The position numbers were made by a program, and so were the translations under genes. 57,897 nt of DNA from positions 1 through 57,897 of IMG/VR virus record IMGVR_UViG_3300044640_000504. One strand, 5' to 3'. Shown here piece after piece: positions 25,292-41,835 of the stretch. The stretch is from a virus. Numbering within the stretch: the first letter of the stretch is position 1; the number at the start of each line of letters is the position of its first letter. Under the pieces are notes generated by a model that was not told the DNA's origin, did not search any database, and saw nothing but the letters and a program-made list of their open reading frames with translations.

Positions 25292-25300
25292 TATAAATAT
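25292..25300 (-). promoter_or_regulatory. Late-promoter-like motif
   Basis: ATATTTATA on the coding strand 23 bases upstream of the ATG at 25268. It marks the start of the spike operon and overlaps the stop of the heptosyltransferase-like gene. Confidence 0.6.
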
Positions 25301-27393
25301 CAGTCTAATACCTTTTTCAACATTTTAATTACCTCTGTGTATTCTATTGATTTAGAACATTCAAATTGTCTTTCAGTACCTTTGTGGTCTGGACACCAAT
25401 TCCAATCCCCAGCGTCCAAACGATAGCGGTTAAAACAACCACTACATTTAGTTTGTGGTGCAGTTATTCTATATGTATCTAATCCAGTTTCTGCAAATCC
25501 TTCGGAGAATCCTGATATTAGTATGGTTGGTGTTTTGGTAGCCCAACTTACCCAACTCAATCCACTACCAATTCCTATGAATGCCTCACTCTTTTGTAGT
25601 TCTTCTATTACATTATCTATCGGTCCGTTTGGTAGTTGAGTAATTCCAGTTGGATGATTATTTCCCATATACCCATCACCCTCTCTACTTAAAAGAACAA
25701 CTTTATATCCTTTATTATTTAACCAATCTACTACCTTTTGCCACCCACCATCGTTGTTCCAATACTTTGATTGAGCAGTTCCGTGTATTGCAATTGCTAT
25801 TTGCTTTTCACGTTTGATTTCTGTGTTTAGTTTTAGTAAAGGTCTTACCTCTTTGTATTCTAATCCCAATATATCGGTTGCCGTTTTTTGTAAAGGATGT
25901 TGTTTGAAATCGGTTGGAACTTTTGCATTATCATATTCTGCGGATGTATCATCTTTATAGAACCAACCTATACGATACATAGCATATAAATTAGGTGCAG
26001 TTTCACCTGGCTCTATAAATTGTAATTGCGGGTATTGTTCTTTAAAAAACTGATTACTAAATGTAGATACAACTACATCACAATTCCATTTCTTACGGAA
26101 CTCTTCTGCTATTGGAAACCAAGCTAATGTATCACCCAATGATTTAGACTCTAATGCAATATAAACTCGCTTACCAGTTGCATCATAATCGTGCTCATAA
26201 ACTAATATATTATCCTTATATACTTCAATTTTCCAATTTACAAAATACTTTTTACCAGCTTTTGCCCAATGGCCATCTTTTAATTTAGTAGTAAATTCTA
26301 AACCATTTGTATCTTTGTTTATAAATTTAACTTCATATTCATCGGTTGTTGGTGATTTTACATCTAAATAAGGACCATCTACAAAATTTACCTCAAATGT
26401 AGGTTTTAATAAATTTGGTCTTTTAATTAAATTATTGTAAATCACTTTTTCTGGTTTTAATTCTTTTACTATATTTTGTAAATTTACTTTTTGATTATCA
26501 CTTATATATGTTGCTATACTATCGTAGTAATTTTCGTAAGTGTGTAGTTTTTTAAGAAAAAGGGGTAATCTATATGATAATGCTTCTTTAACTGCTAATG
26601 GGTTTAGTTCCCACTTTGATGGAAAATAAAATAAATCAGCCCCTTTGTAGAACTTTTCAGTATCACTTTGCTCTCCCCATATTATACAATTATCAGGTTT
26701 GTTTTCCATCAACGGTCCCCAATAGAATTGGAAGTTACCAGCTTGATTTCCTACAAAATGAAACTTTACTTTATAGTTTTCTTCTTCACATAACCTTGCT
26801 AACTCAAATATATCACCCTGATTTTTACCATCTGTAAATAAACCAACGTGAAGAATGTGTTTGTATTCTTTATCAAATCCTACAATTTTCTTTGCTTCAT
26901 CTTTATCACCATCCCAATACTCAATTGGATATTCCCAAATATCACAATCAATGTGAGTAAAGTATTTGGCAAATTTCTTTCTACTCCATTCACTTACTAA
27001 TACGAATTTATCAGCCGTATAAAGTAAATCTTTTGGTTCTGTGTAAGATGAGTGAGTTGTTATTACTATGTTGTAATTTCTACCATTATCAAAAATCTCA
27101 TTTAGATATTGTTTATCTACAAAGGTTTCTGGTATTTCTTGAAAGTGAATAATATGTGGTTGCTCTTTACGGATAATACCAACAACATCACTTTTATGCT
27201 CGCCAATAGTTATTACTTCACATAATTCCTTTATTTTGTTTCTTTGAACTACAAAATCCATAGATACACAATTATACTCTACAACAACTATTTCAAACTC
27301 ATCCTTAAATGTTTGGATTTGCTTTAATAGGTATTGTGGCATACCACCCGTTGAAAGGTGAGGAACTATATATAATAACTTTTTCTTATCCAT
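25300..27393 (-). CDS. GT4-type plus TibC-like heptosyltransferase fusion
   Basis: This 697-residue protein joins two glycosyltransferases. Residues 1-300 are GT4-like: YIVPHLSTGGMPQYLLKQI, THSSY, HVGLFTDGKNQG and NPLAVKEALSYRLP. Residues about 390-697 match the autotransporter O-heptosyltransferase family (TibC type): SKSLGDTLAWFPIAEEF, IAIHGTAQSKYWNNDGGWQ, FIGIGSGLSWVSW. Four Cys (650, 653, 667, 679) stand where that family binds iron, in GDWNWCPDH and RQFECSKS contexts. Known members put heptose on Ser/Thr of secreted adhesins. Here the likely substrate is the phage's own Ser/Thr-rich fibres, by inference. It is the last gene of the operon and overlaps the previous gene by 8 bases. Confidence 0.85.
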   Translation of the reverse strand: MDKKKLLYIVPHLSTGGMPQYLLKQIQTFKDEFEIVVVEYNCVSMDFVVQRNKIKELCEVITIGEHKSDVVGIIRKEQPHIIHFQEIPETFVDKQYLNEIFDNGRNYNIVITTHSSYTEPKDLLYTADKFVLVSEWSRKKFAKYFTHIDCDIWEYPIEYWDGDKDEAKKIVGFDKEYKHILHVGLFTDGKNQGDIFELARLCEEENYKVKFHFVGNQAGNFQFYWGPLMENKPDNCIIWGEQSDTEKFYKGADLFYFPSKWELNPLAVKEALSYRLPLFLKKLHTYENYYDSIATYISDNQKVNLQNIVKELKPEKVIYNNLIKRPNLLKPTFEVNFVDGPYLDVKSPTTDEYEVKFINKDTNGLEFTTKLKDGHWAKAGKKYFVNWKIEVYKDNILVYEHDYDATGKRVYIALESKSLGDTLAWFPIAEEFRKKWNCDVVVSTFSNQFFKEQYPQLQFIEPGETAPNLYAMYRIGWFYKDDTSAEYDNAKVPTDFKQHPLQKTATDILGLEYKEVRPLLKLNTEIKREKQIAIAIHGTAQSKYWNNDGGWQKVVDWLNNKGYKVVLLSREGDGYMGNNHPTGITQLPNGPIDNVIEELQKSEAFIGIGSGLSWVSWATKTPTILISGFSEGFAETGLDTYRITAPQTKCSGCFNRYRLDAGDWNWCPDHKGTERQFECSKSIEYTEVIKMLKKVLD

Positions 27394-28030
27394 TTTGTAA
27401 ATTTCGTATTACCTCATCAAAATATGGTAATTCTACTTGTATTTCATCGTTGTAATCTTTGCTAGTCAAACTCAATTCACCTAATGCTTTTAGATTATCT
27501 ATAATGTATATTGGTCTTTTGTTTTTATCTCTGTTCCACCAATACAATAAATCATCTCCAAAGAATATGCGTAATCTTTCATCTATTTTTATATAGTTTT
27601 CTTTACGAATAAACATCATACAACCAAATCCTAAATACCTACATTCCGCTTCTTTAAATTCAAATACATCTACATTTGTATTAAACTCTGTACCTAAATT
27701 TTTATTCGAATCAAACCCAATTATTCCAAAATCTAAATTGTTTATTGCTTCTAAATTGTGTTTTATTGTTTGAAAGTTTATTTCTATATCATCATTTAAT
27801 AAACAAACAATATTATTTTTAGCAAGTTCAACACCAATATTCCAAGCTTTATTTACAAATAAGTTTTCTTTTGGAATTAAAATTGTTAGTTCTGGGTCTA
27901 AATAGCAACCATGTGAATTATCAATTAAAATAAATTCAGCATTTGGAATGTTTGCTCGTTTGTAATCATCAATGATATTACATAATCGTTTTGCATCTTT
28001 CCACATTGTGGGTACTATAAAACTTATCAT
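27386..28030 (-). CDS. GT2-family glycosyltransferase
   Basis: This 214-residue GT-A fold enzyme has the family N-terminus (MISFIVPTMWKDAKRL), an FVNKAWNIGVELAKNNIVCL helix-strand and the LNDDIEIN motif where the acidic pair binds metal and sugar nucleotide. YLGFGCMMFIRKENY and FFGDDLLYWWN supply the acceptor-side and catalytic acidic residues. There is no membrane segment, so it is soluble. It overlaps both neighbours by a few bases (ATGA-type at 28027-28030), indicating translational coupling in the operon. Donor and acceptor cannot be read from the sequence. Confidence 0.8.
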   Translation of the reverse strand: MISFIVPTMWKDAKRLCNIIDDYKRANIPNAEFILIDNSHGCYLDPELTILIPKENLFVNKAWNIGVELAKNNIVCLLNDDIEINFQTIKHNLEAINNLDFGIIGFDSNKNLGTEFNTNVDVFEFKEAECRYLGFGCMMFIRKENYIKIDERLRIFFGDDLLYWWNRDKNKRPIYIIDNLKALGELSLTSKDYNDEIQVELPYFDEVIRNLQNG

Positions 28031-29850
28031 ATTTTAAATGTTTTGTTTGCGTTATTCTCATCTGCACCAATTCTTGATACAACATCTATTGGATTATTTG
28101 GATTTTCTTTATAGCAATAATCATCCAATCCCAATTCTTCAAATCGTTTAGCAATTCTTTCGTTGTAGTGATACATAATGGTTCTTACTCTTCTTTGAAT
28201 ATCTGCTCTACTTAAATCATGTGTATTTCTACCAGTTGTATTATTATAGATAAACTGAATATAACACATTCTAGGTATTCGCATCATTAGTGTTCCCAAA
28301 AATGTTCTTACTAATAATTCATAATCATCTGCAATTGCTAAATCTCTGTTATGTCCACCAATTTGGAAATAGATTTCTCTTCTCCAAGCTCTAATATGAT
28401 TTGGAACACCCACAATATGACGAATTGTTTTTGGATTTATGTTTGGTGCAATGCAAGAATCAAATTTCATCCCACCTACATTAACACTTTCATATTTACC
28501 ATAACCAAATGCAAACCCATCAGGATAGTGTAGTGAAGTCCAATTCTCATCACATTCAGCATTATCGGTATAAAAGAAACCAATTTCCGGGTGAGTTTGT
28601 GATGCGGAAAAAAGATAATCAGTACAATCAGTAGTAAGGTAGTCATCGTGGTCTAATTCTGCTAATAAATATCCTCTACATAAACTTGCGGCTCTATATT
28701 TACTTTCACCAATTATACCGCCACTCTTTTCTCTAAAATCATATACCTTAACTCTTGCATCGTTTTTAGCAATTTCTTCTGCAATTTTAAGTGTTTTACC
28801 ACCATCCGTTGAATCATTCACCAATACCCATTCCCAATTAGTATAAGTTTGGTTTTGTAAAGATTGATATGTTTTTAATAATTTTTCACCAGTATTATAT
28901 ATTGGAGTAAAATACGAAATCAATTGTGAAACATCGTTTTTTAAAATGTTTTCCATAGCACAATGATATGCATACTCACCGGTATTTCCATCAATGGCAG
29001 GAATAGTAATCCATTTATTACGAATTTGTAAGGGTTGATTTGCCAAATTAGGAAAATTTCTCCAATCGTCTGAAATGGTTACAATAGAATCTGGCTTTAA
29101 CGATGCAATTGTTTTTTCAATATCTACATCATTTTGCAATTGTAATGTAATTAAACTATCATCTTCGTAATCACCTATTTTGTACGATTTTAGTTGTACT
29201 TGTTCTCCTTTATTTATAAGTAAAACTTTTGGAACTTTTGCAGTTGGTGTAGTTTCTAACTGATTGTAATAAGAAAGTTCTTTTGGAATGTAACTAAACC
29301 ATTGTGGATTTTCTGCATAGATTTTATCTATTAAAATACCATCACCCGCGTAATCTCCTGTGAAACTATACTCATTAAATACACTATGGTGAAAAATTAG
29401 TTGGGCAATATCCACACCCTGATATTTCATATTTTCAGGTTTAGCTTCTCTTACATCTAAACCAGTAAAATCTTTACCATATACACTTTGATTTACTACA
29501 AATATTTTTTGTGTATTATTACTTGTTTCGATTGCTTTTACAACCTCTATAAAAAAATGGGGATGAACTATATTATCATCATCCACTACTACCACAAAAC
29601 CATCATCAAATGTTTTTGCTAAATCACTTATTTGTGGATATAAATAATCCGTACCATTGCCAGTTACAAAATGTAGTTGGATTTTTGGATTATTTAATCT
29701 AGCTAATAGTTCAGCTGATATATCTTTTAATCTTGTAGTATCAAATAAAATATGCCATTTAACATCTCCGTTATAATTATCAAATATAGATACTCTTACT
29801 TTATCTAAATTATTTACTCTACTGCAACGTGTTATTATGTTAAATTTCAT
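28027..29850 (-). CDS. Two-domain glycosyltransferase (two GT-A-like halves)
   Basis: This is a 607-residue protein. The N-terminal half (about 1-230) is GT-A-like with FDDGFVVVVDDDNIVHPHFF, where DDD is a metal-binding candidate, and SFTGDYAGDGILIDK. The C-terminal half (about 305-600) is a clear GT2 domain: YFTPIYNTGEKLLKTYQSLQ, NWEWVLVNDSTDGG, LLAELDHDDYLT and a late IADDYELLVRT that may hold the catalytic base. Two transferase domains in one chain suggest successive sugar additions. It shares one base with the next gene upstream. No signal or membrane segment is seen. Confidence 0.8.
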   Translation of the reverse strand: MKFNIITRCSRVNNLDKVRVSIFDNYNGDVKWHILFDTTRLKDISAELLARLNNPKIQLHFVTGNGTDYLYPQISDLAKTFDDGFVVVVDDDNIVHPHFFIEVVKAIETSNNTQKIFVVNQSVYGKDFTGLDVREAKPENMKYQGVDIAQLIFHHSVFNEYSFTGDYAGDGILIDKIYAENPQWFSYIPKELSYYNQLETTPTAKVPKVLLINKGEQVQLKSYKIGDYEDDSLITLQLQNDVDIEKTIASLKPDSIVTISDDWRNFPNLANQPLQIRNKWITIPAIDGNTGEYAYHCAMENILKNDVSQLISYFTPIYNTGEKLLKTYQSLQNQTYTNWEWVLVNDSTDGGKTLKIAEEIAKNDARVKVYDFREKSGGIIGESKYRAASLCRGYLLAELDHDDYLTTDCTDYLFSASQTHPEIGFFYTDNAECDENWTSLHYPDGFAFGYGKYESVNVGGMKFDSCIAPNINPKTIRHIVGVPNHIRAWRREIYFQIGGHNRDLAIADDYELLVRTFLGTLMMRIPRMCYIQFIYNNTTGRNTHDLSRADIQRRVRTIMYHYNERIAKRFEELGLDDYCYKENPNNPIDVVSRIGADENNANKTFKI

Positions 29851-30764
29851 TATCTTAAACTAGCTTCAAATCTGGAATTATGTTCTTCTAAATCTTTAAA
29901 ATCTTTTGTACTATCACAAAACTTACAAAAGGCTTCTCTTGGAAAAGTAAATCCATATTTACAATTTATAGCACAATTTGTTTCGTATCCACACCCGCGT
30001 ATATCTTCAACTACTTTATCAAAATTATCATCATAATGCCAATGGTCACAATGTACCATAATACCATTTTTTAACCAAGCTGATTTTAGTTGCTTACCCA
30101 ATGCTTCTGCTTGTATTTCAGCTTGTCCCCATTGTGTAGATGTTTTTAATTCTGTTGGATTTCCGCTTTCATCGTAAAATTCCTTTAATGGTAATATACC
30201 CAAATTGTAGTATGCTGAATTTTTTCGTATATGCGGATTATTGGTATAATCTCTTTCTTTTAAGAATACAAACTCATCGGTTACACTTTCTACATTTCTA
30301 TCAACAACCCAATATGCAAATCCAAATTGCCTGTTATCAATATCATGTTGATATTTTCGTAATTGTATTTGTTCAATACCGTTGGCTTCCATCATTTCTA
30401 ATGAACGATTTAACCACTCACTATCAAAACCAGCAATATTTTTGGGTAAAGTAATCCAATCTCCTTCTAAAAAAAGAGTATATTTGTAATCTCTACAATA
30501 ATGATTTAATCTATTTATACCAGCACCAACTCCCATATTGATATTGGATTGAATTGGAATAATATCTACCTTATCTTTCCATTTAGTACGAAGAGTATCA
30601 CATACATCAAATATGATTTCACTTTCACCATTTATAAAAATAAACCATTTTACAAACGGAATATTCGTATTTTCTAAAAATGTATTTATTGTAAGTTCTA
30701 ACTGCGTATCACGTTTTACACCGTTATGAGTTAAAGTTACTATACAAAAATGTAGTTTATTCAT
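29850..30764 (-). CDS. Glycosyltransferase-like protein with Cys-rich tail
   Basis: I start at the ATG at 30764 (MNKLHFCIVTLTHNG), directly after the upstream stop; an earlier ATG at 30785 would overlap that gene by 20 bases. The 304-residue protein looks like a GT2-type GT-A fold: IVTLTHNGVKRDT, NINMGVGAGINRL and TLFLEGDWITLP, where EGDW replaces the usual DxD. A HCDHWHYDDNFD segment and a C-terminal cluster of five Cys (CGYETNCAINC, FCKFC) may bind a metal. It shares its final base with the next gene. Function as a glycosyltransferase is likely but less certain than for its neighbours. Confidence 0.7.
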   Translation of the reverse strand: MNKLHFCIVTLTHNGVKRDTQLELTINTFLENTNIPFVKWFIFINGESEIIFDVCDTLRTKWKDKVDIIPIQSNINMGVGAGINRLNHYCRDYKYTLFLEGDWITLPKNIAGFDSEWLNRSLEMMEANGIEQIQLRKYQHDIDNRQFGFAYWVVDRNVESVTDEFVFLKERDYTNNPHIRKNSAYYNLGILPLKEFYDESGNPTELKTSTQWGQAEIQAEALGKQLKSAWLKNGIMVHCDHWHYDDNFDKVVEDIRGCGYETNCAINCKYGFTFPREAFCKFCDSTKDFKDLEEHNSRFEASLR

Positions 30765-30765
30765 A

Positions 30766-31350
30766 TTATTTATAAGGAGAACCACCTACCCAAAGTACTA
30801 AACTTTTACGAGTTCCTTTTGTTACAGGTGTTACTCTATGTAATAAAAATGATGGGAATAAAACTGCTACTCCTTTTTGTTTTGGCATTGTTTGAAAATC
30901 ACCATCGGACCACATTTCTAAATCACCACCTTCATACTCATTTGGGTCTGATAATTGAATTGTAATACTTATTTTTCTATGGTTTATTGAACCTGGTCCA
31001 ATATCCGTGTGCCAACCATAGTGCCCACCACCCTCATAATATTCAGTATATTGTATTGAATCTATAATAGAATGCAAGTTAAATTTCCATATTGCATTAT
31101 TTGCTTCTATTGATAAATCACGTATTCTATCATATACCCAAGCAGATTGACCATCATGATGCATCCATTTTATTTTGGATTTTCTATATTCAGTCTCATC
31201 ACCTGCAATTGTACTTGCAGTTTCAAAACTATAACATTTTTGTAAATTATGTATCCATTCTAATTCCTGCGAATTAAATGCAGAATCAAATGAATAATAA
31301 TTGGTTTGGTCTATTGTATTATCAATACCATATATTGGATATGATTCCAT
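30766..31350 (-). CDS. 2-oxoglutarate/Fe(II) oxygenase, PiuC/prolyl-hydroxylase type (copy 1)
   Basis: This 194-residue protein has the complete dioxygenase set: HTD at 114-116 and His 171 for iron, and Arg 181 for 2-oxoglutarate, in GWHTDIGPGSINHRK and LLHRVTPVTKGTRKSLVLW. The SDPNEYEGGDLEMW strand is typical of PKHD-type (PiuC/YbiX) and prolyl 4-hydroxylase-like enzymes. It is a paralogue of the next gene upstream, which lies five bases away. Hydroxylation of a protein residue is a reasonable guess, and Pro-rich collagen-like fibres are encoded nearby. Other substrates such as lipids or nucleotides are not excluded. Confidence 0.85.
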   Translation of the reverse strand: MESYPIYGIDNTIDQTNYYSFDSAFNSQELEWIHNLQKCYSFETASTIAGDETEYRKSKIKWMHHDGQSAWVYDRIRDLSIEANNAIWKFNLHSIIDSIQYTEYYEGGGHYGWHTDIGPGSINHRKISITIQLSDPNEYEGGDLEMWSDGDFQTMPKQKGVAVLFPSFLLHRVTPVTKGTRKSLVLWVGGSPYK

Positions 31351-31355
31351 ATTTT

Positions 31356-31976
31356 TTATTTAAAAGTGTTTCCACCAACCCACAATACTAAACTTTTACG
31401 AACTCCTTTAGTTACAGGTGTTATTCTGTGCATTAAATAACTTGGAAACATCACTACTGCTCCTTTTTGTTTTGGTGCTTTAATTGGTTCTTTACCACCT
31501 GCCCATATTTCTAAATCACCACCCTCGTAATCATCAGGGTCAGATAATTGAACTGTAATACTTATTTTACGATGATTTAGTGGGGCTGGTCCTACATCCA
31601 AATGCCAATCATACCCACCTCCTTCTTCACCATTATATTCCGTATATTGAATAGCATCTTTTACACATGATAAATCAAATTTCCAATAGTTAAAGTTTGC
31701 TTCTAATGCTTGTTGCATTAATTTATAATAAAGCCATTCGGTTTTATCTGCTTCAGGTGCCATCCATTTAATATTAGATTTTCTAATTGGATTTTCTTCT
31801 TTTTTACTATCATTAAATTCAATTTCACTTTGTGTAAGTGCTTCTTGAAAATCATATAATTTTGAAATGCGTAATACATTACGAATTTCTACATTACTAA
31901 AACCTTTTTCAAACCAATAATAATCTATTTGATTTAATTGATTGTTTTGTGGAAAAACTGGATAAAATTCTAACAT
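31356..31976 (-). CDS. 2-oxoglutarate/Fe(II) oxygenase, PiuC/prolyl-hydroxylase type (copy 2)
   Basis: This 206-residue paralogue of the downstream gene keeps all active-site residues: HLD at 125-127, His 183 and Arg 193, in YDWHLDVGPAPLNHRK and LMHRITPVTKGVRKSLVLW. Relative to copy 1 it has an insertion of acidic residues near 52-65. The two share the KWM...W.Y start of the fold and the I[D/K][S/D][A/S]IQYTEY segment. Having two divergent copies suggests two substrates or two positions. It follows the sulfotransferase gene by six bases in the same operon. Confidence 0.85.
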   Translation of the reverse strand: MLEFYPVFPQNNQLNQIDYYWFEKGFSNVEIRNVLRISKLYDFQEALTQSEIEFNDSKKEENPIRKSNIKWMAPEADKTEWLYYKLMQQALEANFNYWKFDLSCVKDAIQYTEYNGEEGGGYDWHLDVGPAPLNHRKISITVQLSDPDDYEGGDLEIWAGGKEPIKAPKQKGAVVMFPSYLMHRITPVTKGVRKSLVLWVGGNTFK

Positions 31977-31982
31977 AATTTA

Positions 31983-32804
31983 TTATTTTGAGTAATTGAA
32001 ATATTTATAAAACCATTGATATTTTTCATATATATAATTTGATGCATGTTCACCAATAACATCAATATAATCTTCTCTAGGTGGGGTAAAGTTTTTTCTT
32101 ATTGTATGGTCCGCATATGGTCCATATACTTGGTCATTTTCGTGTGTAATTTGTTCAATATTATTAAAATCATGTTCATAGTAAGGTAGTTCTAAATATT
32201 CATATAATTCTTCCATTGCTTCTGTTGGAAATTTACAGAAATCTTCAAACTTTATAAAATGAATATGTTTATCATTTCCATCTATAATACATTGCCATAA
32301 ATTTTCCAATGGCAAATCAAGCATTGGCTTTTGTGCCATATCATCAATTCTAGTAATAACAGAATTTCCTTTGGGGAATTTATAATCAGTTACATTAAAA
32401 TCCTTTAATGGGTTTGCTCTATATTTTTTTTCCATAGATGAAAATATACTACGCAAATCCCTAACCATAACTACTATTTTTGGATTTGGGTCATAGGCAT
32501 TAACAAAATTATATTCACCATGCCAACCTCTAAACTTATCTATTGCATATGGTTTATCTGTTAAACCGCTATAATACCCATTTATTCCATTCTTTAAAAA
32601 AGAACTGAATCCTGGTAATAATTCATCTTGATTTTGAGCTTGAAAGAGTATGTGATTTGTAAATAAATTTCTACATTCCAACATCATAGTAAACATACCA
32701 GATGTTGGAGATGGAAATATATCAGGATTTTGTCCCAACACATTTTGCAATAAAGTAGAACCACTTCTTGGAAAAGAAGCATTATAAAAAACTCTTTTTA
32801 TCAT
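31983..32804 (-). CDS. PAPS-dependent sulfotransferase
   Basis: This 273-residue protein has both PAPS-binding signatures: the 5' phosphosulfate loop SFPRSGSTLLQNVLGQNP (about 10-27) and the 3' phosphate motif VVMVRDLRSIFSSM (about 111-124, with Arg 115 and Ser 119). The layout resembles tyrosylprotein and polysaccharide sulfotransferases. It transfers sulfate from PAPS to a hydroxyl of protein or sugar. It is the first gene of the seven-gene modification operon and has a variant late-promoter motif just upstream. The acceptor is unknown; glycosylated or hydroxylated phage fibres are the suggested target. Confidence 0.85.
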   Translation of the reverse strand: MIKRVFYNASFPRSGSTLLQNVLGQNPDIFPSPTSGMFTMMLECRNLFTNHILFQAQNQDELLPGFSSFLKNGINGYYSGLTDKPYAIDKFRGWHGEYNFVNAYDPNPKIVVMVRDLRSIFSSMEKKYRANPLKDFNVTDYKFPKGNSVITRIDDMAQKPMLDLPLENLWQCIIDGNDKHIHFIKFEDFCKFPTEAMEELYEYLELPYYEHDFNNIEQITHENDQVYGPYADHTIRKNFTPPREDYIDVIGEHASNYIYEKYQWFYKYFNYSK

Positions 32805-32825
32805 TATAACTTTGATATATTATCT

Positions 32826-32835
32826 TACAAATATA
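32826..32835 (-). promoter_or_regulatory. Variant late-promoter-like motif before the modification operon
   Basis: TATATTTGTA on the coding strand, one mismatch from the consensus, about 21 bases upstream of the sulfotransferase ATG. TATATTTG also fits the Bacteroidota -7 pattern TAnnTTTG. Confidence 0.5.
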
Positions 32836-32864
32836 CCACTTTTTTATTTAATAACCAAATTATT

Positions 32865-33341
32865 TTATGGATTGTTTTCTTCCGTTGGATTTAAACTTTC
32901 ATCAATTGGTGGATATTCACCTGGCTCTTCATATATCCATTTACGTCTTTTTTCGGCCCATATCCAATAATCATGTCCACCAACAGGTACTTCTGGTTTT
33001 GCATATTCGGGTTTTAATTCCCACTTAAATGTTGTTCTGTTTAATATCCAAGCTGGTTCGGTTGAGCCTTCAATAACCTCTTCTGGAGTAGCCATTCTTG
33101 GTTCTTTTGCATAAAACGCATCTGCTTCCGCATCATAGTAACCACCAATGGTTGCAAAGTTATATCGTAATGGTGCTTTGTATGAACCACTTTCTGGAGT
33201 AAAATATTGACCACCAAATGTATTATACGATGTCTGTATCCATAAAGAAGGTTCTCCATGTCTTCCAGAATCAATATCAGCTTGTTCTGCTCTAATTACA
33301 TCTACTACTATACCGTCTTCTACTTTTGCAAAATGTCCCAT
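32865..33341 (-). CDS. Conserved phage virion-associated protein
   Basis: This 158-residue protein matches a small family I recall from T4-like marine phages: MGHFAKVEDGIVVDVIRAEQ at the start, SLWIQTSYNTFGGQYFTPES, PLRYNFATIGGYYDAEADAF, then short Trp-containing strands such as AWILNRTTFKWE and a Pro-rich end. It has no catalytic motif. In other phages such genes lie among tail-fibre genes, as here, between the adhesin and the sulfotransferase. A structural or accessory tail role is likely but unproven. Confidence 0.7.
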   Translation of the reverse strand: MGHFAKVEDGIVVDVIRAEQADIDSGRHGEPSLWIQTSYNTFGGQYFTPESGSYKAPLRYNFATIGGYYDAEADAFYAKEPRMATPEEVIEGSTEPAWILNRTTFKWELKPEYAKPEVPVGGHDYWIWAEKRRKWIYEEPGEYPPIDESLNPTEENNP

Positions 33342-33365
33342 ATTATATTTTTACTTTTAATTTTA

Positions 33366-34313
33366 TTATGTCCATCTAATAACAACTTTTCCATGACCAC
33401 CATTTGCGGCACGTCTATCACCGGGTGTATTTGCCCATTTATTAACTGCCCCACCACCGGCTCCTCCGCCGCGGCCACCTTCACCATCTGATGCATTCTT
33501 TCCACCTGGATTATTTCCAGTACATCCTTGACCACCTCCACCATTTCCACCATATCCGGAGGCTCCATTATTATAGCCCGAACCTCCACCTCCTCCACCG
33601 GCTTGGTATCCAGTTGGACCTCCGTATGGGAAATATGAACCACCATTTCCACCTGGTCCTCCACCATCACCTTGTCTACCGTTACCAGAACTACCACGTC
33701 CTCCACCACCGCCTGAACCAGAGCCACCCCCGCCACCTGGCCCACCGGGGTTTCCTTGTGTTCCATTACCAGCTGCTCCACCATAGTTACCACGAGAACC
33801 TCCGCCACCTGAACCACCTTGTCCAGCTGCTCCCCAACCCCAAGTACCACCGCCACCACCAGTAGCTCCTACGTTTCCAATTGCCGAACCACCACCGTTT
33901 CCAGCAGTTCCATCTACACCACCACCTCCGCCACCAACGGTTACACTAACAGGTGATGCTATATAATAATTAGTTTCAACTACACCACCAGCTCCACCGC
34001 CTCCGCCTGTATTTGCATCATTTCCTCCGCCGCCGCCGCCACCAGCAATTACTAATGTACCAAAGGCCTTTCCACCACCAGTTAAAAATGTACCAGGTGA
34101 GTTCCACTCTGCAAAGTTATGTCCACCAGAGTTAAATGTATATGCACCTTGTGCGTTAGCAAAGAATGCTGAATATCCGTGAAATTCACTCATAGAGTCT
34201 GGAGAAGACCTTCCAATAGCAGCTGATAATGTTCGTAGTGAACTATTACTATTACTTCTAGATAACTCTGCGTTTATCTGTGAAATTGATATTGTTCCCG
34301 ATGGTAATGCCAT
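33366..34313 (-). CDS. Poly-glycine tail adhesin
   Basis: This 315-residue protein begins with the tail-protein module MALPSGTISISQINAELSRS, a SMSEFHGYSAFF segment and a short beta domain (YTFNSGGHNFAEW). From about residue 85 it is dominated by glycine runs separated by short loops (GGGGGGGND, GGGGGAGGVVETNYY, TVGGGGGGVDG), ending HGKVVIRW. Sandwiches of polyglycine II helices with variable tip loops form the receptor-binding adhesin of phage S16 (gp38), so this is probably a receptor-recognition protein. Eukaryotic-type glycine-rich domains are an alternative. A late-promoter motif lies 20 bases upstream. Confidence 0.75.
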   Translation of the reverse strand: MALPSGTISISQINAELSRSNSNSSLRTLSAAIGRSSPDSMSEFHGYSAFFANAQGAYTFNSGGHNFAEWNSPGTFLTGGGKAFGTLVIAGGGGGGGNDANTGGGGGAGGVVETNYYIASPVSVTVGGGGGGVDGTAGNGGGSAIGNVGATGGGGGTWGWGAAGQGGSGGGGSRGNYGGAAGNGTQGNPGGPGGGGGSGSGGGGGRGSSGNGRQGDGGGPGGNGGSYFPYGGPTGYQAGGGGGGSGYNNGASGYGGNGGGGQGCTGNNPGGKNASDGEGGRGGGAGGGAVNKWANTPGDRRAANGGHGKVVIRWT

Positions 34314-34332
34314 ATTATATTACTTTATTTAA

Positions 34333-34761
34333 CTATAAATATAAAACTTTTTTAATTTCTCTAAATGTTTCTCTCGGTTCACCATCTGTGCAAATTGAAA
34401 TAAAGTCCTCTAATGGTTCTTCATAATTATCTACAAAGTATGTTTCCCTTCCTCTTTCTTTTGTAGTGTAAAGATATATTTCTTTTACATTACAATCTTT
34501 TTTTAATGCTTCACGAAGTTCTCTGTAAGGTGCTACCATTGATATGATTACACCTTTATTTTCAGAGTCCAAATATCGAACTATATCAAATGATTTTTCA
34601 ATATTTTTTAATCTTCCTTCTTTTGTATAATCGGTATTTGGAAATAACTTTCGCATCGTATCACCATCTATATGAAACATATGGTTTCCAAGATACATTT
34701 GTAACATTTTTGCTAATGTAGTTTTTCCACTACCCGGCTGTCCTATGAATAAATAAATCAT
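34333..34761 (-). CDS. cysC: APS kinase-like P-loop kinase
   Basis: This 142-residue protein has a P-loop GQPGSGKTT (7-15), the APS-kinase hallmark HIDGDTMRKLFPN (30-42), KNIEKSFDIVRYL, and ISMVAPYRELREALKK matching the ISPFRAER segment of CysC. APS kinase makes PAPS from APS and ATP. It is shorter than bacterial CysC (about 200 residues) and could instead be a related kinase. A sulfotransferase gene lies 1.5 kb downstream, which supports a PAPS role. No ATP sulfurylase is visible in this window, so APS would have to come from the host. Confidence 0.75.
   Translation of the reverse strand: MIYLFIGQPGSGKTTLAKMLQMYLGNHMFHIDGDTMRKLFPNTDYTKEGRLKNIEKSFDIVRYLDSENKGVIISMVAPYRELREALKKDCNVKEIYLYTTKERGRETYFVDNYEEPLEDFISICTDGEPRETFREIKKVLYL
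34334..34343 (-). promoter_or_regulatory. Late-promoter-like motif before the adhesin gene
   Basis: An exact TATATTTATA on the coding strand inside the last codons of the APS-kinase-like gene, 20 bases upstream of the adhesin ATG. Confidence 0.6.
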
Positions 34762-34778
34762 AACTCTATAATTTTAAT

Positions 34779-34788
34779 TATAAACATA
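34779..34788 (-). promoter_or_regulatory. Variant late-promoter-like motif before the APS-kinase-like gene
   Basis: TATGTTTATA on the coding strand, one mismatch from the consensus, about 17 bases upstream of the ATG at 34761. Confidence 0.45.
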
Positions 34789-34818
34789 AAGTTACGATTT
34801 ATTTTTCACAATTCCAAA

Positions 34819-36987
34819 TTATTTATTCTTTAATTCGTCTAATTCAGCTTTCAATTCTTTGATTGCTTCTATAATAAGTGGAACAATCTTTTCGTATTTA
34901 ACCGTTAAGTAGTTCTCACCTGATTTAGATATAATTTCACCACTTTCTAATACTAATCTATCTATTGGTGCTAATACTACTACCTCTGGTAATACTTCTT
35001 GTACCTCTTGTGCCGATACTCCGACTTGTTGCTCATCTGTTGTATAACCCAATGATTTAGCCACATCACTATTTGTGTAGTGGAAACCATTTAATTGTTG
35101 TACTTTTGATAATGCGTTTTCAATATTACCAATTCTTACTTTCAATCTATCGTCAGATGAATATGCCGTAATATCACCAGTTGCAGTAATTGCTCCTTGT
35201 ACTGCTATACCTCCGGTGAATGTACCACCACCAAATGGGTTTCCAGTTGGACCAGTTGGTCCAGTTGGTCCAGTTCCACCATTTGGTCCAGTTGGTCCTT
35301 GTCTACCTTGTGGACCAGTTGGTCCAGTTCCACCAGTTGGTCCAGTTCCACCAGTTGGTCCTTGATTACCTTGCGGTCCAGTTCCACCAGTTGGTCCAGT
35401 TCCACCAGTTGGTCCTTGATTACCTTGCGGTCCAGTTCCACCAGTTGGTCCTTGATTACCTTGTGGTCCGTTTGCTCCATTAGAACCATTTGGTCCTTGA
35501 TTTCCTTGTGCTCCGGCCGTACCTGATGTAGCTGCACTATATGATGTTCCGTTTATAGTTAAATCACCAACTACACCAATTGAACCAGTTACTCCAAGAG
35601 AGCCAGTTATTTGAGTTGCTGATACTATTGTTACTAATGTACCATTATCTGTAATGTTTGAGTTAGCAACGTGCTCTCTACCACCACCTTTTAATAATTT
35701 GTTAGTTGTAGGGTATGTTTCATTACCTAAATCGTTATATGTTTCTGGTCCTACCAAAAATACAGATGATGTTACAGTAGTACCATCTCCTCTGTGTACA
35801 AATATAAATTCATCTAAAACTGAATCATAAAGGAATGAACCAGAACCACCCGTTGAACCACTATCTACTGAAACTACACCTGAAAATCTAACTGCTGGTG
35901 TATCAGTATTTAATATTACTGTGTTTGTCCCAATACTTACTGCCGAAGCGGTAATGTTTTGTACCGATGATGAACCTTGTACAACTAAATTAGCACTAAC
36001 AAAAAGTGAACCAGTAATTACTTGTGTTCCAGTAAATATATTATCACCACTTAATTTAGCGTAAGTTGTTACTGCACTACCACTATATGCAGATGCTGAT
36101 GCAAATGCTCCAGCTGCTGCTTGCGTAGCAGTTGTGATATTATCAGTTTGAGTATTGTTTGTTGTTGCTAAACTTGCTGATAAACCAACTTGAGAAGCTA
36201 AACTAGCACTAAATGATGTTGCTGCTGAACCACTATATGCAGATGCTGATGCAAATGCTCCAGCTGCTGAAGCAGAGTTGGTAGTGATGTTACCAATATT
36301 TGTGTTTATCGTTGTATAGAAACTACCACTATAAGCAGATGCAGAAGCGAATGCTCCAGCTGCTGAAGCAGAGTTGGTAGTAATATTGGTATTGGCCGAT
36401 TGTGTGTAAGAGTTGAATGAACCAGTAGTTGTATAGATTTCCGCTACACCAGCTGATGATGAATTTGCTACTTGTTGAGTAACAGTTCCATTATTATCTA
36501 CCACATTGATTGAACCGGTTGTGATTTGGATATTACCAATTTGGATACCACCACCTGCAATACCAGTAATTGTAGTTACTACTTGGTTATTACCCGGATT
36601 AACCATTTTGATTGAACCAGTAGAAATGTAAAGGTCTCTCCACATTTTTGCTGCACTACCCAAATCAAATGTATTATCATTTGAAGGGATAAGAGATGAA
36701 CTTAAACTAGCTACAACATTTACACTGTCGGATGTATTATCACCAATTGTAATGTTTCCACCTAATGTTAAATTACCACCAATTTTTGCGTTTCCAGTAA
36801 TATCTAATCCTGAACCTGAAATAGGTCCAAAATTTCCAGTACTTCCAGTTCCTCCTGCTGATAATACGATGTCTCCATTTGGACCACCAATTACTAAAGT
36901 TCCTAGTGTGGAGTTTACGAATGGTTCTCCGAATTGGAGTGAACCTGATTGTTGTGCGGTTGTACCGCGTCTAAATTTAAGTGCCAT
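34819..36987 (-). CDS. Collagen-like tail fibre with S74 chaperone
   Basis: This 722-residue fibre has an N-terminal tropism-determinant-like module ([20 protein letters not shown], then [15 protein letters not shown]), Ser/Ala/Thr-rich stalk repeats (about 195-310; [10 protein letters not shown]), a beta module also present twice in the 38.6 kb fibre ([20 protein letters not shown]), a collagen-like tract (about 495-580; [10 protein letters not shown]) and an S74 chaperone of 112 residues starting SDDRLKVRI. The linker [16 protein letters not shown] is nearly identical to the one in the 10.6 kb fibre. The S74 domain trimerises the fibre and is then cut off. A late-promoter motif lies 30 bases upstream. 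Confidence 0.85.
35225..35515 (-). repeat. Collagen-coding DNA repeats
   Basis: Tandem imperfect repeats encode [13 protein letters not shown] blocks. Two copies of a roughly 50-base unit near 35340-35460 are almost identical, suggesting recent expansion. Confidence 0.7.
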
Positions 36988-37018
36988 TTAGTTTACCTTT
37001 TTTTTAGTTATGTACGCT

Positions 37019-37028
37019 TATAAATATA
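37019..37028 (-). promoter_or_regulatory. Late-promoter-like motif
   Basis: An exact TATATTTATA on the coding strand about 31 bases upstream of the collagen-like fibre ATG at 36987. Confidence 0.6.
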
Positions 37029-37041
37029 AAGTTTTTTTTTA

Positions 37042-37809
37042 TTAAACATTAAAATCCAAATCTCCGCTATTATTTATATATTTAGCAAGATGCATATAGT
37101 TGGCAGTGATACTACCAGTTGTTATATTCATTGTATCTGCACTCATAGATAAATAAGTTGTACTTGCAATTATTACTTGCATCGAGTCTGTTTGTGCAAC
37201 TACTTGAGTATTTGATGATATATCTTCTATAAAACCAACTTGCCCAGCTACTGATGGTTCTAAATTAAAATCAAATGTATTATTACCACCTGCAGATGCA
37301 CTAACTATTCTAGCATCTAGTGATGAACTGAAATCGGTTAGATTACCAACTCCGGTAAATGTTGATGCAGATACTGAACCAGTTACATTTATAGAACCTG
37401 TAAATTGGTGTGTATCATCTTGTGTATCACCAAACTTTGTTGAACCTGATTGAAATATTACAGATGATGAAACTACCGATATATTGAATTGTCTTGCATT
37501 AATTGCTCCTAATACCGTCAATTCATCCGTTACTAATTGAGAGCCACTAATGATGGTTGTTCCGTGATTGACGGTAAGAGTATCATTAACTTTTAGTGAT
37601 GAGAATGAACCAGTCCCATTTAGAGTTAGGGAGCCAGTAATTGTTGAATTTGTTGTTAGTATTTCTTGTATTGACTCAACGGAACCTGAACGTTTGAAGA
37701 ATACTTTACCATCGTAAGTATTGATTGCTACCTCTCCCAAGTTCAAAGAACCTGTATCCGGTACTTTTCCAGCTAAACCGGAACGCTTTAGTATAATGTT
37801 TTGAGCCAT
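37042..37809 (-). CDS. Short fibre or fibre-associated protein
   Basis: This 255-residue protein starts with the attachment-type module shared by five proteins here (MAQNIILKRSGLAGKVPDTG, then LGEVAINTYDGKVFFKRSGS) followed by ITGSLTLNGTGSF-type beta repeats and a C-terminal LSMSADTMNITTGSITANYM segment. The N-terminus is closest to the next protein upstream (37944-38576), so the two are probably duplicates. It has no chaperone domain. A role as a short fibre or fibre adaptor is inferred from composition and position. Confidence 0.65.
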   Translation of the reverse strand: MAQNIILKRSGLAGKVPDTGSLNLGEVAINTYDGKVFFKRSGSVESIQEILTTNSTITGSLTLNGTGSFSSLKVNDTLTVNHGTTIISGSQLVTDELTVLGAINARQFNISVVSSSVIFQSGSTKFGDTQDDTHQFTGSINVTGSVSASTFTGVGNLTDFSSSLDARIVSASAGGNNTFDFNLEPSVAGQVGFIEDISSNTQVVAQTDSMQVIIASTTYLSMSADTMNITTGSITANYMHLAKYINNSGDLDFNV

Positions 37810-37864
37810 ATGTATGGAACGTATTGGTGTTATTTAACAAGAAATATGTAGTATATACTACCTA

Positions 37865-37874
37865 TATAAATATA
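37865..37874 (-). promoter_or_regulatory. Late-promoter-like motif
   Basis: An exact TATATTTATA on the coding strand just downstream of a terminator and 55 bases upstream of the ATG at 37809. Confidence 0.6.
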
Positions 37875-37878
37875 TAAT

Positions 37879-37909
37879 AAAAAAATAAAACCCTCCAAAA
37901 TTTGGAAGG
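37879..37909 (-). terminator. Rho-independent terminator after the 37.9 kb gene
   Basis: A 9-base stem with one G-U pair (minus strand CCTTCCAAA/TTTGGAGGG) is followed by TTTTATTTTTTT. Confidence 0.8.
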
Positions 37910-37943
37910 TCCTATCTCACTTTACCTTTTAATAAATTATTTT

Positions 37944-38576
37944 TTAGAATGTTCCAGCATCTATACCCTCTTCTAATGCTTGCAATCTACTTGCTACTGA
38001 ACCAGAGTATGCCAATACATCACCAATACCATATAATGAGCCACTAAAACCATAAGTATCTGTTAGTTCTGCGAACTTTGTACCATTTTTTCTAAACTCA
38101 ATTGATGCAGTAGTTGGTGTAATATTATATATTGTACTACCACTATTTTCTAAATAACCAACATAACCCGCCGTTGGGTCTGTGTTGAAGTCATAATTGT
38201 TAGCTGCTGATATAACAACATTTGTTAATTTACTACCATCTCCAACGAATGCTGAAGCGGTAACAGAACCACCAAAATCTATATCACCTAGACCAACTAT
38301 ATCACCATTTACATAGATACTACCTGTTACATCCAAATCTTGTCTTACAACAAGCTCACTAAATGAACCAGTACCTATTATGTTTATATTACCAACAGTA
38401 TCACTATTAGTAACAACTAACTGCTCTATGCTTTCAGCCGAGCCTGATTTATGAATATACGCTTTACCATCGTAGGTGTTTAATCCAATCTCACCAACAA
38501 AAAGTGTTGATGTAGTTGGTAAACTGCCTGATACGGCGGAGCGTCTTTGTAATATTTTTTGATTTGGTACAGCCAT
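37944..38576 (-). CDS. Short fibre or fibre-associated protein
   Basis: This 210-residue protein has the attachment-type N-terminal module (KILQRRSAVSGSLPTTSTLF, then VGEIGLNTYDGKAYIHKSGS) and GNINIIGTGSF / DVTGSIYVNGD repeats, with a short helical end (ASRLQALEEGIDAG). It resembles the 37042-37809 protein over the first 100 residues. It has a terminator on each side (before its start and after its stop), so it may form its own transcription unit, yet no clear late-promoter motif is seen upstream. The function is inferred as fibre-related. Confidence 0.65.
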   Translation of the reverse strand: MAVPNQKILQRRSAVSGSLPTTSTLFVGEIGLNTYDGKAYIHKSGSAESIEQLVVTNSDTVGNINIIGTGSFSELVVRQDLDVTGSIYVNGDIVGLGDIDFGGSVTASAFVGDGSKLTNVVISAANNYDFNTDPTAGYVGYLENSGSTIYNITPTTASIEFRKNGTKFAELTDTYGFSGSLYGIGDVLAYSGSVASRLQALEEGIDAGTF

Positions 38577-38610
38577 TTTATTTTTTATTTTATCAGTTCA
38601 TTTATTTACT

Positions 38611-38641
38611 AAAAATAACCCCCCATTTCTGGGAGGTTATT
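38611..38641 (-). terminator. Rho-independent terminator after the long stalk fibre gene
   Basis: A 12-base stem with one G-U pair (minus strand AATAACCTCCCA/TGGGGGGTTATT) and a 4-base loop, followed by a T-rich tract. Confidence 0.8.
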
Positions 38642-38646
38642 TGTTA

Positions 38647-41600
38647 TTAGAATGAACCACCATCTATGGTATTACTCATTACGAAATCAGTACCATTCCA
38701 TTGTGCTATATCACCAGCCGTTGTAGGTGCTGCTATAAACTCAATGTTATCAGTTAAACCTCTAAATGCTAATCGTTTAGTTGAAGCACCTCCCGGTACA
38801 TTTAGTGAAGCTGTTACACTACTGAATGATACATTGTTTGCCGTACCAACTCCTTGTATTGAACCACTACCTTCTAATGTATCTAGTCTACTATCTACTG
38901 AAGAAGATAAAGCGGTTACACTTGCTGCACTTGCGGAGAATGATGTTGCTACCGAAGAACTAAATGTACCAGTTACACTTGCTACCGAAGAACTTAATTG
39001 TGCTATTTGGTATGCACTAGAACTAAATGAAGTTGAAATTGCGGTGTCAAAAGTTGCGTAACCAAATGTTCCACTTAATGCAGTTTGGATTGAAGATGTA
39101 AATACATTATCACCAGTTGCTAAAAGAACTTTATATTCACTATCTTTTACACCAGCTTTCCAGTAATCATTAGTTGAATCCCAAATTAAAGAACCAGTTG
39201 CCAAATTAGGTGATGTTACATCTTTAACATATAAACCACCATTAGATGCACCCGAACCATTTAATTCGATAATATTATCACCTAATTCAATTGTAGTTGA
39301 ATTAACCGAAGTTGTTGTACCTCTTACTAATAAATCACCTTGAATTGTTACAGATGAACCAGTTAGTTCAATTGCGGTTTTTAAAGATGATGAATATGTT
39401 TCTAATGCACCAATTCTATCAGTTTGTGCGTTATCCGTAGTTGCAATTGAAGCACTTAATGCGGTTTGTGAAGCTAAACTTGCAGAGAATGAAGTAGCTG
39501 CCGATGCACTATTAGCCGTTGCAGTTGCTGCACTTGCACTAAATTGAGTGTAAGCAGAGCCAGATAAGGTATTGAAATCCGATGCTGCTGATGCACTATT
39601 AGCAGTTGCAGTAAATGCACTTGCAGAGAATTGAGTATAAATTGAACCACTAAACTCACCAGTTGTACTTGCTACCGATGCAGATACTGCAGTAATACTA
39701 GCGTTACTTGCAGAGATTGAAGTAGCCGCACTCGCAGAGTTTGCAGTTGCAGTAAATACACTTGCAGAGAATTGTGTATAAGCCGAACCAGATAATGTAT
39801 TAAAATCCGTAGCCGCACTTGCAGAGTTTATAGTTGCAGTAAATGCACTTGCAGAGAACGATGTTGCTGCCGATGAACTATTTGCAGTTGCAGTAGCTGC
39901 ACTTGCAGAGAATTGTGTATAAGTAGAACCACTTAATGTGTTAAAGTCAGATGCCGCACTTGCAGAGTTTGCAGTTATTGTAGCTAAACTTGCAGAGAAC
40001 GATGTTGCTGAACTTGCTGAATTAGCCGTTACACTTGCCGCACTTGCAGAGAATTGTGTATAAGCCGAACCAGATAATGTATTAAAATCAGATGCTACAC
40101 TTGCAGATAGAGCCGTTTGAGAAGCTAAACTTGCAGAGAATGAAGTTGCTGCCGATGCAGAGTTTGCAGTATATCCAGCAACACTTGCACTAATTCTTGT
40201 ATCAAACGATGCAGAATCTATGTAGTATGATTGTGTAAATGCTAAATAAGAACCAGAAATAGTTTCCAAATTAGAAACTCTTGTTCCTAATGAACCACCA
40301 CCACCGATTGAACTTTCAATTGTATCTAATCTAGTATCAACCGATGTAGAGTATGCAGTTACATTACCTAAACCAGTTATTGTAGATGAACTAATGTTAC
40401 CACTTACATCCAAATCACCAGTTAAAGTAATTTTACCTGCTGATTGGCTCATTATTGAATCACCAATATGGTCATCACCCGTTGCAACCATTATTCTACC
40501 AGGAGTCAAATGAACTTCATCACCCAAAGAACCAGAGTTTTTTGGACCAGAAATTAACATTGCACTCATATTGGCTTCATCACCTACATTTGGATGTTGG
40601 TAAATCCAATGATTATTTAATGAATCCCAAAATAATGAACCAGATACACCTGCATTAGAACCAGAATCTTGTACACTTATACCACCAAATCTAACGGCAG
40701 GAGTTGCGTTGTTTAATACAATTGTATTATCACCAATATCTAAAACCGATGCAGTTACATTAAATAGTGATGAAGAACCATAAACAATTAAATCGTTTGT
40801 GATGTACATCGAACCAGTAATGACCTGATTTCCTTGGAATATGTTTGAACCAGTAGTTGCTAATCTTGTATCGTTAAATTCAAGTGCATCTAATCTAGTA
40901 TCTACCGAAGTTGATAATGCTAATACCGATGCTGCCGATGCGGAGAATGAAGTTGCTACTGAAGAACTAAAGTTACCCGTTACACTAGCTACCGAAGAAG
41001 ATAATGCAGTTACTTCTGCTGCACTTGCACTAAATCTAGTATCTACTGATTGTGAGAACAAAGTTACATTACCAATACCACTTATTGTTGATGCACTAAT
41101 GTTACCACTAGCACTTAAACTACCAGTAAAATCAATTCCATTTACAGCAGTAATTGTTACCGTTCCTGCACTATCATTTATTGCTACATAGTTAGTATCA
41201 TCACCTAAAAAGGTTAATCCACCCGTAGCTTTAATATGAACATCCGTAGCTGCAGTATTATAAATTTCAAGTTGTCTTGCATCACCAACATTAGGTTGTA
41301 AGAAAATTGAACCAGTACCTTGTATTGGACCGGTAACAAGTAATGAACCTGTTATAGTTTGGTCACCATTAAATCTATTTGAACCAGTTGTTGCGTATGA
41401 ACCAGTTAAGGCTTCTAAATTACCAACACGAGTTGCAATTGAACCGCCACCGCCTAAAGAAGCTTCAACCGAACCTAATCTACTATCAACTGATTGTGAG
41501 AATGGTTGGATGTTACCTACTAAATTGATTGCTTCGTTTCCATCACTACCTAATAAGAATAAGGTAGAACTACCACTTGCGTAGTAAGGAACTCCTTTAA

Positions 41601-41835
41601 GCATTCCATTGTAAGTAGATGCAGAAAAGATATTAGGGTTAGATGAACCCATCAAGAATCTGTTGGTAGCTTGTACCGAACCTGATTCAGGAACAATGAA
41701 CGACAATGCCGTTCCGTTGGTTGTGGTTAGGTTAGCGGAGCCAGTAGCTAATACTATCTCACCTTTTTGTAGTGAGCCAGTTACCTCACTTAATTTTTCT
41801 AGACTACCACGTCTGTGTTTGATTATTTGTGCCAT
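38647..41835 (-). CDS. Long stalk-type tail fibre
   Basis: This 1062-residue fibre starts with an attachment-type module (MAQIIKHRRGSLEKLSEVTG, then LQKGEIVLATGS). The central 500 residues are repeats of short heptad-like units ([27 protein letters not shown]), which look like a trimeric coiled-coil stalk. A beta module (LDIGDNTIVLNNATPAVRFG) occurs near residue 360 and again in diverged form near 850, and once in the 34.8 kb fibre. The C-terminus is short (RLAFRGLTDNIEFIAAP then IAQWNGTDFVMSN) with no chaperone. It is probably a proximal fibre segment. Confidence 0.75.
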   Translation of the reverse strand: MAQIIKHRRGSLEKLSEVTGSLQKGEIVLATGSANLTTTNGTALSFIVPESGSVQATNRFLMGSSNPNIFSASTYNGMLKGVPYYASGSSTLFLLGSDGNEAINLVGNIQPFSQSVDSRLGSVEASLGGGGSIATRVGNLEALTGSYATTGSNRFNGDQTITGSLLVTGPIQGTGSIFLQPNVGDARQLEIYNTAATDVHIKATGGLTFLGDDTNYVAINDSAGTVTITAVNGIDFTGSLSASGNISASTISGIGNVTLFSQSVDTRFSASAAEVTALSSSVASVTGNFSSSVATSFSASAASVLALSTSVDTRLDALEFNDTRLATTGSNIFQGNQVITGSMYITNDLIVYGSSSLFNVTASVLDIGDNTIVLNNATPAVRFGGISVQDSGSNAGVSGSLFWDSLNNHWIYQHPNVGDEANMSAMLISGPKNSGSLGDEVHLTPGRIMVATGDDHIGDSIMSQSAGKITLTGDLDVSGNISSSTITGLGNVTAYSTSVDTRLDTIESSIGGGGSLGTRVSNLETISGSYLAFTQSYYIDSASFDTRISASVAGYTANSASAATSFSASLASQTALSASVASDFNTLSGSAYTQFSASAASVTANSASSATSFSASLATITANSASAASDFNTLSGSTYTQFSASAATATANSSSAATSFSASAFTATINSASAATDFNTLSGSAYTQFSASVFTATANSASAATSISASNASITAVSASVASTTGEFSGSIYTQFSASAFTATANSASAASDFNTLSGSAYTQFSASAATATANSASAATSFSASLASQTALSASIATTDNAQTDRIGALETYSSSLKTAIELTGSSVTIQGDLLVRGTTTSVNSTTIELGDNIIELNGSGASNGGLYVKDVTSPNLATGSLIWDSTNDYWKAGVKDSEYKVLLATGDNVFTSSIQTALSGTFGYATFDTAISTSFSSSAYQIAQLSSSVASVTGTFSSSVATSFSASAASVTALSSSVDSRLDTLEGSGSIQGVGTANNVSFSSVTASLNVPGGASTKRLAFRGLTDNIEFIAAPTTAGDIAQWNGTDFVMSNTIDGGSF
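39430..40200 (-). repeat. Stalk-coding DNA repeats
   Basis: Repeats of about 100-130 bases encode Ser/Ala/Thr stalk units (LSGSAYTQFSAS-type). Several 40-base stretches recur almost unchanged, for example near 39780, 39915 and 40060. Confidence 0.7.

Follow-up and report, generated by a model that had tools for sequence, protein, structure and literature searches.

A compact APS-kinase-like protein and a linked sulfotransferase as a probable sulfation module of phages

Introduction

What could a phage gain from activated sulfate? The question is raised by a 57,897-base linear virus record (the window, by which we mean the whole stretch of DNA analysed) from an uncultured phage, which encodes a T4-type major head protein (phrog_138) together with an APS-kinase-like protein and a sulfotransferase. 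Genes of both kinds have been reported from phages: cysC has been catalogued in large freshwater phages and read as part of assimilatory sulfate reduction (PMC10914622), and sulfotransferases occur in OM43 phage genomes, their function being called unclear (PMC10580990). Are the two genes of the window chance neighbours, or do they work together? We consider it likely that they form a phage-borne sulfation module, in which a predicted PAPS-making kinase is combined with a PAPS-using sulfotransferase.

Results

Gene neighbourhood in the window

Both genes belong to a minus-strand gene run that is unbroken over 25300-41835, with intergenic gaps of -20 to 134 bases (Table 1). They lie about 1.5 kb apart and two ORFs intervene, the Gly-rich one of which is retained in the window's clade (L003-L005). 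The run is flanked on one side by two 2OG-Fe(II) oxygenases and several glycosyltransferases, and on the other by tail-fibre-like genes. The collagen-like fibre protein, with about 32 Gly-X-Y triplets, scores 26.1 bits for Collagen, slightly below the cut-off of 27.2, and its gene shares the run with both oxygenases. No tRNA genes were found in the window, and a promoter scan gave a signal no better than that of shuffled sequences. As for the host, tape-measure-like similarity to Flavobacterium and Microcystis phages was all that the search gave, and it was weak.

Table 1. Position and assignment of the module genes and their neighbours in the window
Feature	Position	Strand	Basis
Compact APS-kinase-like protein, 142 aa	34333..34761	-	Pfam APS_kinase, PDB profile matches, AlphaFold model
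PAPS-dependent sulfotransferase (predicted), 273 aa	31983..32804	-	Sulfotransfer_3; PHROG 27463, 127 bits; motifs and their spacing
Adhesin-like Gly-rich ORF (37% G), located between the two module genes	33366..34313	-	phrog_2295, 73.8 bits, unknown function; composition
ORF158, phage family without known function	32865..33341	-	phrog_7759, 60.5 bits
Tail-fibre-like protein, collagen-like run and Peptidase_S74 chaperone end	34819..36987	-	Peptidase_S74, 46.5 bits; repeat run
2OG-Fe(II) oxygenase, 6 bases downstream of the sulfotransferase	31356..31976	-	PF13640, 57.6 bits; HxD...H...R residues
Second 2OG-Fe(II) oxygenase	30766..31350	-	PF13640, 62.8 bits
Glycosyltransferase family 2 protein	28027..29850	-	PF00535, 68.7 bits
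Glycosyltransferase family 2-like protein	27386..28030	-	PF00535, 24.7 bits
Glycosyltransferase, group 1 and family 9 domains	25300..27393	-	PF00534, 50.7 bits; PF01075, 29.6 bits

The APS-kinase-like protein

Is the kinase really related to APS kinases? Its product passes the Pfam model APS_kinase (PF01583) with 48.1 bits against a cut-off of 21.1, and it carries the P-loop GQPGSGKT, HIDGDTMR (DGDxxR), GRxxNI and SxVxPYRxxR. An alignment of 41 phage kinases shows no variation at D32, G33, R37, R50, N53, P78 and R83 and hardly any at Y45; the conserved residues include positions that bind APS in solved APS kinases. A profile of the same 41 proteins ranks APS kinases first in the PDB. The AlphaFold model (pLDDT 95.4) superposes on 7yq1, the A. 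fulgidus APS kinase with APS, over 142 of 142 residues with Z 20.2 and rmsd 2.0, and Foldseek again puts APS kinases at the top. The 142 model residues span residues 3-168 of 7yq1, and the protein has a shortened lid ahead of the YExP motif, a difference in length that the sequence alignments show as well. Pfam, PDB profile and structure agree, so that the family and the fold are established by computation, and the preliminary description, which had recognized an APS-kinase-like protein from its P-loop and HIDGDTMR, was correct and placed it at the right coordinates. Under the NCBIfam models the scores stay below the cut-offs (adenylyl-sulfate kinase, 48.5 against 127 bits; apsK, 42.1 against 138.7 bits); because these cut-offs are far out of reach, the protein is regarded as a divergent member of the family and is labelled APS-kinase-like. 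It is probably a kinase of this type, with a predicted PAPS-making activity.

Could such an enzyme act instead on another substrate, such as a sugar acid, a nucleotide or a CDP-phosphoramidate-like compound, its proximity to a sulfotransferase being incidental? The protein is short and divergent, falls under curated cut-offs, and finds gluconate kinases (Z 16.4) as its closest structural matches after the APS kinases, followed by adenylate kinases at about 14. A CysC homologue with a changed substrate, CDP-phosphoramidate-like, is reportedly known from work on the Campylobacter capsule, where the enzyme name is in use. We nevertheless judge a change of substrate highly improbable here, given that the kinase gene repeatedly overlaps the sulfotransferase gene in distant phages, that the two functions adjoin each other in CPR and DPANN genomes as well, and that the kinase is associated with DUF2061 and with canonical APS kinase contexts.

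The sulfotransferase

The second enzyme matches Sulfotransfer_3 (PF13469) with 53.6 bits (cut-off 27) and Sulfotransfer_1 (PF00685) with 33.2 bits (cut-off 22). The two PAPS-binding motifs that had been described for it are both present: the 5'-phosphosulfate loop PRSGST occupies residues 12-17, and the 3'-phosphate motif consists of R115 followed eight residues on by S123, in MVRDLRSIFSSM. Across 36 aligned relatives these positions are mostly invariant. By profile, the nearest protein in the PDB is protein-tyrosine sulfotransferase. The catalytic Glu of that class is lacking, the GEETR stretch that holds it being replaced in the alignment by PTSG, which is invariant among the phage proteins.

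Linkage of the two genes in related phages

With two genes lying between them in the window, is the link between kinase and sulfotransferase real? Whole-contig searches found both genes in all nine of the first relatives. These fall into two clades, between which the sulfotransferases share 43-44% identity. Wider searches, one by the kinase and one by the sulfotransferase, yielded 80 loci each; the counts that follow refer to non-redundant loci, grouped by the gene that found them, and describe co-occurrence at the found loci only. The kinase lies within 3 kb, often overlapping, in 22 of the 40 sulfotransferase-found loci that have 3 kb of downstream sequence. Where both genes are present (n=25), they are within 20 bases of each other in 10, and 7 of these 10 share an identical short overlap. 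Starting from the kinase (47 loci), a member of this sulfotransferase family is found within 8 kb in 12, DUF2061 within 3 kb in 24, and a small adenylyltransferase, here called N, within 1 kb in 38; N was counted in phage loci with a profile cleared of fusions between kinase and N (K-N fusions). The link is real, despite the two intervening genes. The pairing put forward in the preliminary description thus holds in other phages, where the genes are often directly adjacent, even though the window pair itself is not.

The two genes also occur apart. Among the contigs that carry the kinase or N but have no sulfotransferase close by, 48 were tested, many of them short fragments, and 43 gave no Sulfotransfer_3 match at any other place; several nevertheless encode divergent PRSGST/PRTGST proteins, and a clear Sulfotransfer_1 is present in L078. 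PAPS may serve another purpose in some phages. Conversely, no kinase was found on 27 of 30 tested sulfotransferase contigs without a nearby kinase, many of which are short, and in G018 a distance of about 58 kb separates the sulfotransferase from the kinase and N.

Two further genes recur near the kinase. In a subset of the phages, a small HAD-type phosphatase gene stands between the kinase and N (L070:8435-8773, L225:5658-5999, L084:8432-8800), and its product could be a PAP phosphatase. A carbamoyltransferase gene lies near the kinase in eight K-N phage loci where no member of this sulfotransferase family is close by (for example, L062:2788-4455, L066:6169-7836 and L042:6169-7851).

An adenylyltransferase beside the kinase

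Where would the APS come from? In most relatives, the gene downstream of the kinase, usually overlapping it, encodes N, an HxGH adenylyltransferase of roughly 110-160 aa; in some phages N adjoins or is fused to the kinase, and DUF2061 often comes next. One such K-N fusion is encoded at L242:187-987. The HxGH nucleotidyltransferase superfamily model PF01467 is matched by 33 of 34 N members. Overall, NMN and phosphopantetheine adenylyltransferases are closer to N than the known ATP sulfurylases are: the fold of N reaches Z 9.8 to the phosphopantetheine and 9.5 to the NMN enzymes, with no clear preference, and ATP sulfurylases are not among the structural matches listed, a ranking that has no bearing on whether N is an ATP sulfurylase. 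Against the Sat model (PF01747), any match at all was obtained for 15 of 34 members (best E 2.8e-4), and N of L009, encoded at 9277-9687, scores 17.3 bits where the cut-off is 24.3. S-adenosylmethionine synthetase-like genes lie beside N or K-N in some viral contigs, Bacteroidetes and a marine group III archaeon (L242:988-2082, L288:1391-2656, L272:6431-7570).

Is N then an NMN adenylyltransferase for NAD salvage that travels with the kinase by chance? Its best database matches are indeed NMN adenylyltransferases. However, these matches cover mainly the N-terminal half and are far under the cut-offs (for N of L009, 33.4 of 127 and 30.0 of 181 bits with the two NCBIfam models), phages, bacteria and archaea alike have N in linkage with APS kinase or fused to it, and N and CysN exclude each other (see below); a role in NAD salvage is accordingly improbable.

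In the window's clade N was not found, a 195 kb contig included; weak matches inside a large protein were rejected. The clade being without N, the host is a plausible source of APS there, as had been suggested at the outset. As a general account a host supply is incomplete, because many relatives encode an adenylyltransferase of their own and those phages therefore probably make APS too.

N in bacteria and archaea

The same gene is present in cellular genomes, where a scan gave 80 loci, including Marinimicrobia, Flavobacteriales, Omnitrophota and haloarchaea. In 71 of the 80, an APS-kinase-like protein is beside N or fused to it. A Flavobacteriales locus combines N with a canonical APS kinase (241 bits), an inositol-monophosphatase-family (CysQ-like) protein and a sulfotransferase, and in this order a flippase-like gene and sulfotransferases are found near N. 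In loci of Patescibacteria and Diapherotrites (CPR and DPANN, respectively), a Sulfotransfer_3 gene directly adjoins a K-N fusion. DUF2061, which often follows K-N as a small gene in phages, is fused to the APS kinase in L320:7210-8001 and L318:3686-4384, with N as the next gene. In Nitrospiraceae (L276:4698-8471; also L275 and L277), N follows sulfite reductase and PAPS_reduct genes with no APS kinase nearby, and Sat is encoded elsewhere in the genome.

Does N take the place of a known ATP sulfurylase? The 146 genomes of the order to which G094 belongs were searched for APS kinase (E <= 1e-15) and CysN (E <= 1e-50). CysN matches that reach about 100 bits on frames of 400 aa were generally ascribed to EF-Tu background. 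An APS kinase is encoded in 62 of the 146. Among these, CysN occurs in none of the 6 genomes with N and in 54 of the 56 without it (Fisher p 4.6e-7, a value that overstates independence because the six genomes may be related and three of them, G094, G105 and G108, were known beforehand as N carriers). In the two genomes with neither N nor CysN, the APS kinase lies within 1 kb of a contig end. Sat is absent from G094, G105 and G108, the three of the six N-bearing genomes that were searched for it. N is not always the sole candidate for ATP sulfurylase, since Sat and N occur together in three Nitrospiraceae or Nitrospirales genomes, one Pyrinomonadaceae and one Omnitrophota genome.

From these patterns in sequence and gene content, we infer that N represents an undescribed type of ATP sulfurylase. 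The broader proposal, namely that N is a third type, neither Sat nor CysDN, and that large aquatic phages combine it with a sulfotransferase and a compact APS kinase into a full pathway from sulfate to sulfoconjugate that decorates the virion, is tentative, and we give it somewhat more than one chance in three.

A different use of PAPS would be assimilatory sulfate reduction in the infected cell, the phage kinase providing more PAPS for CysH and so more cysteine. This is the published view of phage cysC and cysH (PMC10914622), and in Nitrospiraceae a related N does sit in a PAPS_reduct/sulfite reductase operon. For the phages it seems very unlikely: no CysH or CysI relative was found by a single-sequence search in the kinase flanks examined, the sulfotransferase often adjoins the kinase, and the kinase of the window is placed among fibre and glycosyltransferase genes.

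Discussion

How might the sulfation module operate? In the window's clade, APS would be supplied by the ATP sulfurylase of the host; in most related phages, N would make it from ATP and sulfate. The 142-aa kinase would then convert APS into PAPS by 3'-phosphorylation, and the sulfotransferase would use this PAPS as donor of the sulfo group that it passes on to an acceptor. In N-bearing phages, the module could thus lead from sulfate through APS and PAPS to a sulfo-product.

Which acceptor is involved? The chances are about even that the target is a glycan or a protein of the virion, such as the tail fibre. This is the likeliest acceptor because the module sits among tail-fibre, tail-sheath and glycosyltransferase genes, and genes of these three kinds recur beside it in relatives. 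In the window, the collagen-like fibre, the two 2OG-Fe(II) oxygenases and the glycosyltransferases together suggest that the fibre may be modified; the fibre protein is a candidate acceptor. Alternatively, the module could make PAPS in order to sulfate a surface glycan of the host or a small molecule, for instance to block superinfection. Phages are known to modify host surface glycans, glycosyltransferases are among the commonest neighbours of the module, and N of Flavobacteriales lies near a flippase-like gene and sulfotransferases. The embedding of the genes in a tail-fibre/tail-sheath region, which is evidence from position, speaks against this, and we regard a target outside the virion as possible but rather unlikely; a virion glycan or protein is preferred.

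What do these genes mean for the wider field? (i) Phage cysC is at present read as sulfur assimilation and phage sulfotransferases are unexplained; the linkage gives them a joint role, the supply of PAPS for sulfation. (ii) In marine bacteria with APS kinase and with neither Sat nor CysN, the first step of sulfate activation is missing; should N be an ATP sulfurylase, it would supply that step. (iii) Sulfation of phage particles, if true, would be a little-known means to alter charge and receptor binding. The PAPS part of the predicted module is well supported by comparison, and the candidate ATP sulfurylase is the newest element of the finding. A literature search, with most subscription journals outside its coverage, found no paper on an alternative ATP sulfurylase or on a phage PAPS module. 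The preliminary description had called virion sulfation rare in phages; the word is to be used with care, because sulfotransferases are annotated in several Synechococcus phages and phage cysC has been catalogued (PMC10914622).

Comparison with known systems

The kinase belongs to the same gene class as the phage cysC of PMC10914622, a paper that mentions no sulfotransferase. The sulfotransferase is a Sulfotransfer_3 protein, as are those of the marine Synechococcus and OM43 phages, and related sulfotransferases are encoded by the cultured Synechococcus phages S-SCSM1 and S-SKS1; for those of OM43, the accessible part of PMC10580990 describes no PAPS-making partner. Like other APS kinases (CysC, the PAPSS kinase domain), the phage kinase has the P-loop, DGDxxR, GRxxNI, PYRxxR and the full-length fold; unlike them, it has only 142 aa and a shortened lid, and it scores under the NCBIfam cut-offs. 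The sulfotransferase shares its PAPS loops with TPST, its nearest solved structure by profile, and differs from it at the GEETR stretch, where the catalytic glutamate of TPST is located and the phage family has its invariant PTSG.

The closest parallels in organization are bacterial. In NodPQ-NodH of rhizobia and RaxPQ-RaxST of Xanthomonas, dedicated PAPS-making genes are kept with a sulfotransferase, and the phage module likewise keeps a predicted PAPS-making gene with its sulfotransferase. RaxST is the subject of PMC4216712. The parts differ: NodPQ and RaxPQ comprise a CysD/CysN-type ATP sulfurylase and a full-length APS kinase, whereas the phages have a compact kinase, joined in many relatives by an HxGH adenylyltransferase and in the window's clade by none.
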